A DNA stretch of 64,000 nucleotides, taken from the NCBI GenBank assembly GCA_002021875.1, contig CP018627.1, positions 8,122,001-8,186,000 on the forward strand, written 5' to 3'. The notes below the pieces were generated by a model. The model saw nothing but the letters and a program-made list of their open reading frames with translations, did no database searches and was not told where the DNA came from. The translations under genes and the position numbers were made by a program. This document shows, in pieces, positions 41,221 through 45,493 of this stretch. Each line of letters begins with the position of its first letter. Within the stretch, counting starts at the first letter, position 1. The DNA comes from Streptomyces hygroscopicus (GTDB taxonomy: Bacteria; Actinomycetota; Actinomycetes; Streptomycetales; Streptomycetaceae).

Positions 41221-44079
41221 GTGGGGGGAATGACGTCACAACCCTTGAATACCTCGGCACCAGAGGAAGGCCCGGAGCCGCTCTCGGTTGCCCAGTTGCT
41301 GTTGCGGGCGGCGCGCGACCACGCCCATTCGGGGGTGCGCTATCTGGTCGGGCCCGCGGCGAGTGAATCCGTGCGGCAGTCCTACCCGGAACTTCTGGAA
41401 TCGGCGCTCGACCTCCTCTCCGCACTCCGCGGCCGGGGATTGCGGCCGCGGGACACGGTGGCCCTGCTGCTGGACCGCCAGCCGGAATTCCTGACCGCCC
41501 TCTGGGCCTGTCTGCTGGGCGGCTTCGTGCCCTGCCCGATGGTGCCCATCTCCGGCGACCCAACCCGCTGGACGGCCCAACTCGCCCATGTCAACCGGCT
41601 GTTGGACGGCCCCTTGCTGCTGACCACCGAGGCGACGCGCGCCGAGCTGCCGACGGTGCCCGGACTCGCGGTGGCCGTGGTGGAGGAGTTGCGGGACGAG
41701 GCCGCGGACCCCTCCGGAGCCGAGCGCGGGCAGCCGCCCGCCGTGCACTCCGCGGCCCCGCAGGACCTCGCCCTGCTGGTGCTGACCTCCGGCTCCACCG
41801 GGAATTCCAAGGCGGTCACGCTCACCCATGGAAATATCCTGGCGTCGATGGCCGGAAAGGCGGGGAAACAACAGCTCACCGCCGCCGACACCACCTTCAA
41901 CTGGATTTCCTACGACCATGTGGCCGCGCTCTTGGAAGCGCATATGCTGCCGTTGTACGTGGGCGCCGAGCAATTGCATGCGGAAGCCGCGGTCATTCTC
42001 GAGGAGCCGCTGCGGTTCCTCCGGATAATCTCCCGCCACAAGGTCACGATGACCTTTACGCCGAACTTCCTCCTCGGTCCGCTCAATTCCTCCGCCCATG
42101 AGATAGCGGAGGAGATATCGGCGGGCGGTGAAGGGCTCGATCTCAGCGCGCTGCGCCATATCGTCAGCGGCGGTGAGGCGAATGTCGTCGCGACCGGTGA
42201 GGCATTCCTCGCCCATTACGCTCCGTACGGACTGCGGGCGGGAGCCCTCTGGCCCGCCTTCGGCATGACCGAGACCTGCGCCGGATCCATCTACAACCGC
42301 GCGTTCCCGGTCACCGACGTGGGCCAGGAGTTCGCCAACCTCGGCACCCCCGTCGAGGGGCTGCGGATCCGGGTCGCCGACGACGACCACCGGGCGCTGC
42401 CCGCGGGCGAGATCGGCGAGCTCCAGCTCAGCGGGCCGATGATCACCACCGGCTACTACCACGACGAGGCGGCCACCGAGGCGGCGTTCACCCCCGACGG
42501 CTGGTTCCGCAGCGGCGATCTGGGCCGGATCGACGAGGGCCGGCTGACCCTCGTCGGGCGCAGCAAGGACAGCGTCATCGTCAATGGCGTCAACTACTTC
42601 AGCCATGAGATCGAGGCCGCCCTGGAGCAGCTCGACGATGTCGCGAGCGGCTTTGTGGCGGCGTTCCCGACCCGCCGCCCCGGCAGCGACACCGAGCAGC
42701 TCGTCATCGCCGTCAGCCCGGAACCGGCGGACGACGACGAGGCCGGGCTGCACCGCATGATCACCGCGGTGCGCTCCACCGTCGTGATCCACTGGGGCTT
42801 TCGGCCCTTCCTCATCCTGCCGCTGCCCAAGGACGCCTTCCCCAAGACCAGCCTCGGCAAGACGCTGCGCCGACGCATGCGTCACCGTCTGGAGTCCGGC
42901 GGATTCGACGACGTCATCGAGCGGGTCGCGGAGCTGACCACCCGCCGGCTCGGCGGCCACACCCCGCCCGAGGGCGAGACCGAGCGAATCCTCGCCGAGA
43001 TCTACGCCGAGATGTTCGACACCGCCCCCGAGCGCATCAGCGCGACCGCGAGCTTCTTCGACCTCGGCGGCACCTCGCTGGACATCCTGCGGCTGCGGCG
43101 CCAGGTCCACCGGCGCCTGGGCGTCGCGGACCTGCCGGTCATCACGGTGCTCACGGCGCCTTCGGTACGGCAGCTCGCCGCCCGGCTCGGCGACGGCGGC
43201 ACGCCCGACGCCGCGGTGTACGACCCGGTCGTACCGCTGCAGACCGGCGGCGAGAAGACCCCGCTGTTCTGTGTCCACCCCGGCGTCGGCGAGGTGCTGG
43301 TCTTCGTCAACCTCGCCAAGTACTTCGTCGGCGACCGGCCGTTCTACGCGCTGCGCGCCCGTGGCTTCAACGAGCACGAGAAGCCCTTCACCAGCTTCGA
43401 GGAGATGGTGGAGTGCTATGTGGAGGCCATCCGCGCCCGCCAGCCGCACGGCCCCTACGCCGTCGCCGGCTACTCCTACGGCGGCGCCGTGGCCTTCGAG
43501 ATCGCCAAGGCGCTCGAGGCCCAGGGCGAGCGGGTCGACTTCGTCGGCAGCTTCAACCTCCCGCCGCATATCAAGTACCGCATGGAGGAACTCGACTTCG
43601 TCGAGACCGCGACCAACCTCGCCTTCTTCCTCGACCTGATCAACAAGAAGCAGTCGCTCGACCTCCCCGCCGAGCTGCGCCCCCTGCCCCAGGAGGAGCA
43701 GCTCGCGCATCTGCTGCGGATCGCCCCGCGCGGCCGGCTGGACGAACTCGACCTGGACCGCGACACGTTCAGCGCCTGGGCGGAGCTGGCCCACGGCCTC
43801 ACCACCCTGGGCCGCGACTACCACCCCAGCGGCACCACCCGGTCCATGACGGTCTTCTACGCGATCCCGCTGCGCGGCACCAAGGAGGACTGGCTGGCGA
43901 ACGAGCTGCGCCGGTGGGACGAGCACACCACGGAGCCGAACCGGTATCTGGACGTACCCGGTGAGCACTACACACTGATGGGCCCGCGGCATGTCGCGGC
44001 CTTCCAGGCGGTTCTGCGCAGGGAACTCGACCGTGCGCTGGGCGACGCCGACCGGGCCCGGACCGCGGGCCAGGCATAG
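41221..44079 (+). CDS. NRPS-like A-T-TE synthetase (aryl pyruvate dimerising; polyporic-acid/p-terphenyl synthetase candidate)
   Basis: 952 aa. The adenylation domain covers about 30-590: [32 protein letters not shown], and the closing Lys in [28 protein letters not shown] replaces the amino-acid Asp motif, as in aryl-alpha-keto-acid activating enzymes (atromentin, terrequinone, ralfuranone, echoside types). A carrier domain has Ser in [12 protein letters not shown] (about 615); the thioesterase has GYSYGG (Ser about 750) and the His of GEHYTLMG. There is no condensation domain. Such enzymes join two phenylpyruvates or similar into a quinone core. GTG 41221 has AGGAAGAGG upstream; ATG 41230 is the alternative. 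The next two genes fit p-terphenyl formation. Confidence 0.88.
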
Positions 44080-44118
44080 GCCCGAGCGGGCCAGGCAGCG
44101 GCCCGACCGGGCCAGGCA
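44065..44118 (+). repeat. Short tandem repeats around the synthetase stop codon
   Basis: GCCCGA(G/C)CGGGCCAGGCA occurs at 44080-44097 and 44101-44118, with a partial unit CGGGCCAGGCA just before, at the end of the synthetase gene; period 21 bp. The repeats fill the gap before the reductase ribosome site (AAGGAG at 44120). Confidence 0.75.
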
Positions 44119-44134
44119 CAAGGAGAAGAGCAGG

Positions 44135-45079
44135 GTGGAAGGCAAGAAGATCCTGGTCACCGGGGGCACCGGGCAGGTCGCCCGGCCGGTGGCCGAGGCG
44201 CTGGCCGAGCGCAATGAGGTGTGGTGCCTTGGCCGGTTCGGCACCCCCGGTGTCGAGAAGGAGCTGAACGACCAGGGGATCACCACGTTCCACTGGGACA
44301 TGAACGACCTGGGCGCGGCGGCGTACGAGGGGCTGCCGGACGACTTCACCCATGTCTTCCACTCGGCGGTGCGCCGCGGTGAGGACGGCGACGTCAACGC
44401 CGCCATCGAGGTCAACTCGGTGGCCACCGGCCGGCTGATGTCCCACTGCCGGCGGGCGGAGGCGTTCCTCTTCGTCTCCACCGGAGCGCTCTACAAGCGG
44501 CAGACCCTCGACCACGCGTACACGGAGGACGACCCCGTCGACGGGGTGGCCGACTGGCTGCCCGCCTACCCGGTGGGCAAGATCGCCGCCGAGGGCGCGG
44601 TACGGGCGTTCGCCCAGGTGCTGAACCTGCCGACGACCATCGCCCGGCTCAACATCGCCTACGGCCCCGGCGGCTACGGCGGGGTGCCGATGCTCTACTT
44701 CAAGCGGATGCTCGCGGGCGAGCCGATACCGGTGCCCATGGAGGGCCAGAACTGGTGCTCGCTCCTCCACACCGACGATCTCGTCGCCCACGTCCCCCAT
44801 CTGTGGGAGGCCGCCTCGGCCCCGGCCACGCTGGTCAACTGGGGCGGGGACGAGGCGGTCGGGATGACCGACTGCGTGCGCCATCTGGAGGAGCTCACCG
44901 GGGTGCGGGCCCGGCTCGTGCCCAGCGAGGTCACCCGTGAGACCTATCAATTCGACCCCACCCGGCGGCGCGAGATCACCGGCCCCTGCCGGGTGCCGTG
45001 GCGCGAGGGCGTGCGTCGTACGCTCCAGGCGCTCCACCCCGAGCACCTTCCGTCCGAGTCGCGGCACACCGCCGTCTGA
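44135..45079 (+). CDS. NAD(P)-dependent epimerase/dehydratase-fold reductase (TerC-like candidate)
   Basis: 314 aa extended [29 protein letters not shown] is the GxxGxxG dinucleotide site and [15 protein letters not shown] carries the Tyr-x3-Lys active-site pair. In terfestatin/echoside clusters an extended-SDR reductase works with a SnoaL-like dehydratase to turn polyporic acid into terferol; this gene has exactly that position, between the A-T-TE gene and a SnoaL-like gene. The role is inferred from context. GTG 44135 with AAGGAG nine bases upstream. Confidence 0.8.
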
Positions 45080-45094
45080 GGAGTGGCGACCACC

Positions 45095-45493
45095 ATGGCA
45101 TCAGCGAACATCGAGGCCATTCGCGCCTCCTACGCGGGTTTCCGCGACCGGGACATCGAGGGGATCCTGTCGGGCATGCACCCCGATGTGGAGTGGGTCC
45201 ATCCGGAGGGGATGGCCAAGTACGGGCTCGGCGGCACCAAGCTGGGCCATGCGGGGATCAAGGACTTCCTCGCCCATGTGCCGACCGTGCTGGGCGGGAT
45301 GAGGCTCGCGCCGCGGGAGTTCATCGAACAGGGCGACCGGGTCGTGGTGTTCGGCACCCGTGAGGTGACCTCGCGCCGCGGTACGACCGTGACCCTGGAC
45401 TTCGTCCACTCGTGGACGATGCGGGACGGCAAGGCGGCGAGGATGGAGGACATCTTCGACACCGTGGCGTTCCATGAACTGATCGAGAGCTGA
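45095..45493 (+). CDS. SnoaL/NTF2-like protein (TerB-like dehydratase candidate)
   Basis: 132 aa single alpha+beta barrel: IEAIRASYAGFRDRDIEGILSGMHPDVEWVHPEG is the standard opening, then VVVFGTREVTSRRGTTVTLDFVHSWTMRDGKAARMEDIFDT. NTF2-like folds are used as cyclases, isomerases and dehydratases in polyketide and terphenyl pathways. It starts 15 bp after the reductase stop with GAGGAG overlapping that stop, so the three genes form one operon. Assignment as the dehydratase partner is inference from synteny. Confidence 0.78.
   Translation: MASANIEAIRASYAGFRDRDIEGILSGMHPDVEWVHPEGMAKYGLGGTKLGHAGIKDFLAHVPTVLGGMRLAPREFIEQGDRVVVFGTREVTSRRGTTVTLDFVHSWTMRDGKAARMEDIFDTVAFHELIES

Follow-up and report, generated by a model that had tools for sequence, protein, structure and literature searches.

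A terABC/echABC-type operon predicted to build a p-terphenyl core in Streptomyces hygroscopicus, and a diverged, TerC-less counterpart elsewhere in its genome

Introduction

The closest described relatives of the locus reported here, a three-gene operon of Streptomyces hygroscopicus, are the cores of p-terphenyl pathways. The operon occupies positions 41221-45493 of a 64,000-nucleotide stretch of DNA (hereafter the window), which corresponds to bases 8122001-8186000 of a host genome assembled as a single contig of 12.0 Mb. Its relatives place the strain in what we call the violaceusniger group of Streptomyces. One described relative is the ter cluster (terfestatin/echoside) represented by PDB entries 6nd7, 6d2v, 6d34, and 6wf4, which we take to be proteins from Streptomyces sp. 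RM-5-8. In the ech cluster of Streptomyces sp. LZ35 (echosides), the EchA-EchC core and its roles are, by description, like those considered here (PMC9379647, PMC12105029), and the dat cluster of Streptomyces sp. KIB-H1544 (daturamycins, terferol) likewise has a three-gene core, datA-datC (PMC9379647).

The chemistry of these cores has been reported in some detail. DatA converted phenylpyruvate to polyporic acid in vitro, with EchA, which is 69.2% identical to it, run alongside, and six compounds, terferol among them, disappeared when datA was deleted (PMC9379647). EchB and EchC jointly, or the fungal protein AlfC alone, are reported to reduce and dehydrate polyporic acid to a trihydroxyterphenyl, which reoxidizes spontaneously in air and whose O-methylated derivative is terferol (PMC12105029). 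The fungal alf cluster (allantofuranone) accordingly pairs a nonribosomal peptide synthetase (NRPS)-like polyporic acid synthetase with reductive dehydration to trihydroxyterphenyl and O-methylation to terferol, the single bifunctional AlfC doing the work of both EchB and EchC (PMC12105029).

The flanks of the core are said to differ between strains (PMC11074319). Downstream of the dat core lie genes for the bilirubin oxidase DatD and the oxidoreductase DatE (PMC9379647), whereas no multicopper oxidase was found among the scanned downstream frames of the window and, with respect to the ech cluster of LZ35, no glycosyltransferase was found among its scanned frames. The Pfam scan underlying these and the following statements took in 43 frames of the window, leaving out seven small ones of the 48 open reading frames (ORFs) picked; the ORF picker called nothing in positions 61880-64000.

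A terABC/echABC-type operon in S. hygroscopicus

The three genes are adjacent on the forward strand in the order A, B, C. The first, a terA/echA orthologue (41221..44079), encodes a predicted polyporic acid synthetase of 952 aa, identified by its Pfam domains, a relative of the same length and 96% identity in S. antimycoticus, and its substrate-code residues (described below). The gene was called from a GTG at 41221, with in-frame ATG codons at 41170 and 41230 as alternative starts. The protein comprises an adenylation domain (residues 48-413; 41362..42459; PF00501, 174.9 bits), a thiolation (carrier) domain with an LGGTSL motif (residues 591-656; 42991..43188; PF00550, 44.1 bits), and a thioesterase domain with GYSYGG serine and GEHYTL histidine motifs (residues 681-924; 43261..43992; PF00975, 110.7 bits), and the Pfam scan detected no condensation domain, which is the adenylation-thiolation-thioesterase (A-T-TE) architecture of bacterial polyporic acid synthetases. 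A preliminary description of this DNA, made from the letters alone, had given the same coordinates, length, domain order, and absence of a condensation domain, and had noted the motif [12 protein letters not shown] in place of the amino-acid-binding motif; all of this is borne out.

The second gene (44135..45079), a terB/echB orthologue with a GTG start preceded by AAGGAG, encodes an extended short-chain dehydrogenase/reductase (SDR) of 314 aa (PF01370). Aligned over its full length with TerB (6nd7), it is identical at 298 of 314 positions, and the product of the third gene (45095..45493), a terC/echC orthologue encoding the SnoaL/NTF2-like dehydratase partner (PF12680), is identical to TerC (6d34/6wf4) at 124 of 131 positions, identical residues having been counted by eye on printed alignments in both cases. 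The Rossmann motif of TerB ([11 protein letters not shown]) and its YPVGK (YxxxK) motif are visible, and full-length orthology thus coincides with the SDR motifs of TerB/EchB ([10 protein letters not shown] and YPVGK). Among solved structures TerB scores 695 bits against 6nd7 and 59 bits against the next non-TerB entry, which rules out a sugar epimerase, while TerC scores 274 bits against its counterpart. The preliminary description had named best matches of these two proteins outside terphenyl clusters as an outcome that would count against its proposal; the best solved-structure matches of both are terphenyl enzymes.

The genes are closely spaced. The gap between terB and terC is 15 bases, as previously described, whereas that between terA and terB is 55 bases (44080-44134) rather than the 56 given before. 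A GTG at 45083 would shorten the terB-terC gap to 3 bases; however, a GGAG lies 11 bases upstream of the ATG at 45095, and because the GTG would overlap this putative ribosome site, ATG 45095 is the most likely terC start.

Homology, gene order, and the conservation of residues are direct observations, and the three genes are very probably an orthologue of terABC/echABC, encoding a polyporic acid synthetase with its reductase-dehydratase pair. The arrangement is not attributable to chance, because all three TerA domains exceed the Pfam cut-offs, TerB and TerC are ~95% identical to the crystallized enzymes, and the same gene order recurs in 43 of 43 loci whose TerB is at least 63.5% identical (see below). 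The operon all but duplicates a published system and is an ordinary member of a family that is already known.

The three-gene block is conserved in varied surroundings

Scanning genome contigs with TerB yielded 62 loci, the counts from which show the company that TerB keeps and not the frequency of the operon. In 43 of these loci (hereafter ABC loci), the three genes follow one another as A, B, C on a single strand, and TerB is 63.5 to 97.7% identical to that of the window. In the other 19, the identity of TerB does not exceed 50% and it is accompanied by no A of at least 50% identity, the upstream contig being too small for a whole A gene in four (L061, L071, L073, and L074). The ABC loci are spread over Streptomyces, Kitasatospora, and one Methylocapsa. 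A LuxR-like regulator family (its two Pfam matches are below the cut-offs) accompanies 19 of them, and near some of these loci there are acyltransferase, ketosynthase, and phosphopantetheinyl transferase genes. A similar arrangement is described for cluster 26 of S. globisporus C-1027, in which echABC homologues adjoin LuxR regulators and a polyketide cluster (PMC9381841).

Because the three genes are kept while the surroundings differ among loci, the block moves in one piece; the neighbors of the operon in the window belong to one lineage. The compact three-gene cassette stressed in the preliminary description is present, but its compactness is ordinary, being found in the dat core as published (PMC9379647) and throughout the 43 ABC loci. 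The S. hygroscopicus operon is a clean reference case of a terphenyl core traveling as a fixed three-gene block.

A tree of TerA sequences, built by a quick method with support from the Shimodaira-Hasegawa-like approximate likelihood ratio test (SH-aLRT) only, groups the window with 16 other rows in one supported clade, with S. niphimycinicus nearest. Five of the 60 rows of the synthetase alignment were left out of the tree: L018 and L057, in which the synthetase is shortened, and L089, L090, and L091, which were judged to duplicate the genomes of L027, L042, and L048 exactly or nearly so, their identity values being equal or almost equal.

Several loci depart from the common pattern or extend its range. 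The Methylocapsa aurea locus (L049), from a proteobacterium, holds a complete ABC block at 54-64% identity. In S. philanthi bv. triangulum (L057), the matches to all three genes extend over only ~57% of their length, and in S. violaceusniger (L018) the A match is reduced to about half, reflecting either gene decay or sequencing error. Three loci of a further synthetase lineage (L109, L110, and L111, from genomes G042, G033, and G004) have A and B with no TerC match in the 18-19 kb covered, while their sister L115 keeps C; a fourth member of this lineage, L114, has neither B nor C in 17 kb. In a plasmid collection, a synthetase 60-80% identical to TerA was found in 6 of the 2616 records with a match, among which NZ_CP156687.1 from the proteobacterium Burkholderia stagnalis encodes one of 63.6% identity.

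Substrate code of TerA and the predicted product

In an alignment of 60 synthetases, TerA has V, F, V, G, A, A, and G at code positions 1, 4, 5, 6, 7, 8, and 9, a mapping that rests on motif alignment and in which the third position (E) hangs on a one-residue alignment gap. Phe4 is present in 59 of 60 rows, while Val or Ile at position 5 and the residues G, A, A, G at positions 6-9 are found in all 60. By sequence, the best solved relatives of TerA are the McyG adenylation-carrier protein and 6ulw/6ulx, which are presumably activators of aryl or keto acids. The code reported for an EchA homologue is VAEFVGAAGK (PMC9381841), and in fungal enzymes Val or Ile at position 5 is associated with phenylpyruvate and Asn with 4-hydroxyphenylpyruvate (PMC10316625). 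Judged by these published rules, Val1 of TerA indicates a keto acid and Val5 phenylpyruvate. The adenylation domain thus has, on its residues, an EchA-type keto-acid code, in agreement with the preliminary description, which had named an adenylation domain that activates amino acids as an outcome that would contradict it.

Other assignments of TerA were considered and rejected. An amino-acid-activating NRPS module is ruled out by the missing condensation domain together with the keto-acid code. The best NCBIfam matches of the adenylation domain would make it a plain acyl-CoA or fatty acyl-AMP ligase; however, the 25 families listed, of 101 matching, were all below their curated cut-offs. Separately, the thioesterase motif GSFNLPP carries Asn in all 59 rows that cover it, at what we take to be the site of the catalytic Asp of many type I thioesterases.

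Each chemical step of the pathway is our inference from the literature on enzymes that are either near-identical or of the same family. TerA would adenylate phenylpyruvate and load its own carrier domain, after which its thioesterase would join two phenylpyruvate units by a Claisen-Dieckmann reaction to give polyporic acid. TerB, as an NAD(P)H-dependent SDR, would then reduce the quinone, and TerC, its NTF2-fold partner, would assist dehydration, yielding 2',3',5'-trihydroxy-p-terphenyl. The preliminary description had the B and C proteins convert polyporic acid to terferol; the reductase and dehydratase roles agree with the published account, but the product there is trihydroxyterphenyl, and terferol requires O-methylation (PMC12105029). 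In this clade, we expect enzymes encoded elsewhere in the genome to convert the core by O-methylation and glycosylation to echosides or terfestatins, although the final product and the tailoring enzymes are the parts of this explanation that we hold with the least confidence.

Atromentin synthetases share the architecture and mechanism of polyporic acid synthetases (PMC10316625), and the operon could in principle make a hydroxylated, atromentin-type core from 4-hydroxyphenylpyruvate. However, position 5 of TerA is Val, as in polyporic acid synthetases, and not the Asn of atromentin synthetases, the rule being derived from fungal enzymes (PMC10316625). In addition, a prephenate dehydratase gene starts just after terC in 4 of the 43 ABC loci (L040, L049, L050, and L051). 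The product of prephenate dehydratase makes phenylpyruvate, and this placement fits a dedicated phenylpyruvate supply, so that an atromentin-type core seems very improbable. Alternatively, the operon may be the whole pathway, leaving an unmodified trihydroxyterphenyl or, upon oxidation in air, deoxypolyporic acid, and the absence of glycosyl- and prenyltransferases among the scanned frames of the window, as well as the spontaneous reoxidation reported for the core (PMC12105029), are consistent with this. On the other hand, the genome has 11 EryCIII-like glycosyltransferase matches, all of them outside the window and without a tie to the operon, which make tailoring in trans likely, as do echosides known or predicted from other Streptomyces (PMC11074319). 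Daturamycin C and terferol are, moreover, methylated, yet the dat core as published names no methyltransferase (PMC9379647). An unmodified end product is therefore unlikely, though a good deal less so than the atromentin-type core.

Several points weigh against the terABC/echABC explanation as a whole. The scanned window frames contain no glycosyltransferase and no dedicated O-methyltransferase adjoining the operon, the tailoring genes that would complete an echoside/terfestatin cluster. The preliminary description had reported no prenyl-, glycosyl-, or O-methyltransferase nearby, which holds for the first two among the scanned frames but requires a reservation for the third, as a generic S-adenosylmethionine methyltransferase (31314-32108), 9 kb upstream, just passes the O-methyltransferase PF00891 cut-off (22.5 versus 22.3 bits); the relatives were compared over only ~7 kb ahead of terA, which stops short of this gene. 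Furthermore, no congener of the echosides was detected from the echABC homologues of S. globisporus C-1027 in the conditions used (PMC9381841), and echoside C, predicted by mass spectrometry in Streptomyces sp. 11-1-2, was unconfirmed by targeted high-performance liquid chromatography (PMC11074319). Given that echosides were undetected or unconfirmed in these two strains, terABC/echABC-type operons may be nearly silent.

A diverged, TerC-less unit elsewhere in the genome

The main use of the operon is as a yardstick for a second unit of the same genome, which is the lead worth following. This unit lies outside the window, at G000:C1:556938-564579 (L076:8938-16579), where a second A-T-TE synthetase, an open 944-aa frame 56% identical to TerA, and a second TerB-like SDR (56%) are encoded at 559-563 kb. 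A TGA within the synthetase match is the gene's own stop, beyond which the match runs for 21 bases. There is no second TerC, as only a single TerC match was found in the whole genome at an E-value of 0.001. On one side of the pair is a gene for an ATP-grasp protein and on the other a gene for a 672-aa protein in which a GNAT-like domain (PF13480) is fused to a HisC-like aminotransferase; a cupin-like ORF adjoins. The ATP-grasp protein (22.5 bits, cut-off 27) and the cupin-like protein (17.8 bits, cut-off 27.2) both fall short of their Pfam thresholds; both assignments are strengthened by matches to solved structures, namely the L-amino acid ligase 4wd3 (58.8 bits) and the cupin type-2 protein 9u8n (41.9 bits).

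The GNAT-aminotransferase fusion was found in 11 of 392 Streptomyces genomes, and at all 11 loci the ATP-grasp, synthetase, TerB-like, fusion, and cupin-like genes lie within a 20-kb neighborhood in which no TerC match was detected at an E-value of 1e-6. The first four genes are co-directional at every fusion locus; the cupin-like gene is on the same strand as the unit in 4 of the 11 and on the opposite strand in 7. A carbamoyltransferase is near in 7 of the 11. In the TerA tree, six second-type synthetases form a fully supported clade, sister to the non-Streptomyces L113, which keeps A, B, and C, and they share with L113 a one-residue deletion in a motif (e.g., DHIAA-IEAH). This relationship and the shared deletion suggest that TerC was lost or replaced as the second pathway was rebuilt.

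The genome would contain two diverged quinone-synthetase modules, and the second may turn a polyporic-acid-like core into a product that carries nitrogen, a reading that we regard as evenly poised. The aminotransferase half of the fusion could transaminate the core or supply phenylpyruvate, the ATP-grasp ligase could form an amide, and the cupin could stand in for TerC. The structural matches strengthen two parts of this reading and the strand split of the cupin-like gene weakens the case for this fifth gene as a member of the operon, so that on balance the likelihood of a nitrogen-bearing product is unchanged. The gene partners suggest nitrogen chemistry that is not included in the published terphenyl pathways compared here, and if the reading is true, these loci represent a bacterial terphenyl-derived family without a described product. 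No description of the unit was found in the open-access literature; a subscription paper could describe it.

Neighboring genes in the window

Upstream of the operon and divergent from it, on the reverse strand, lie a gene for a DUF4097 (Toastrack) protein conserved in the ech-type clade (39987..41084; PF13349), with at least 45% identity in 17 of the 43 ABC loci, and a PadR-family regulator gene (38878..39990; PF03551), whose start is approximate, since its frame is open on to 40893 but the PadR domain starts near residue 316. Downstream are a nitroreductase-family gene on the reverse strand (45600..46532; PF00881), its start also approximate, with homology in many relatives only over the C-terminal two thirds of the frame, and, on the forward strand, genes for a TetR-family regulator (46369..47052; PF00440, PF14246) and a BTAD (SARP-like) regulator (47036..47890; PF03704), the last of which is found in 15 of the 43 ABC loci.

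At a 45% identity limit, the PadR, DUF4097, nitroreductase, and TetR genes occur all or none, together in the same 17 ABC loci and in none of the other 26, among which the L039 contig is too short to tell. The 17 tree rows labeled by these flanks form one supported clade; 16 of them were verified or are the window itself, and L087, with short fetched flanks, was labeled by similarity alone. The loci of S. buecherae and S. philanthi keep all four genes without the farther malic enzyme and alcohol dehydrogenase neighbors. In addition to the terABC/echABC assignment, and compatible with it, these genes may belong to the pathway, with the nitroreductase keeping the quinone/hydroquinone reduced and PadR or TetR sensing the aromatic product. 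Their joint presence in a single clade, including S. buecherae and S. philanthi, argues for such a role; however, co-occurrence within one clade can be shared descent, and the loci showing none of the four imply that they are dispensable for the core, so we put this forward tentatively, as somewhat more doubtful than not.

Farther downstream, on the reverse strand (53541-57473), the window encodes a 1310-aa multifunctional 2-oxoglutarate dehydrogenase with E1 and acyltransferase domains, the usual actinobacterial form of this enzyme.

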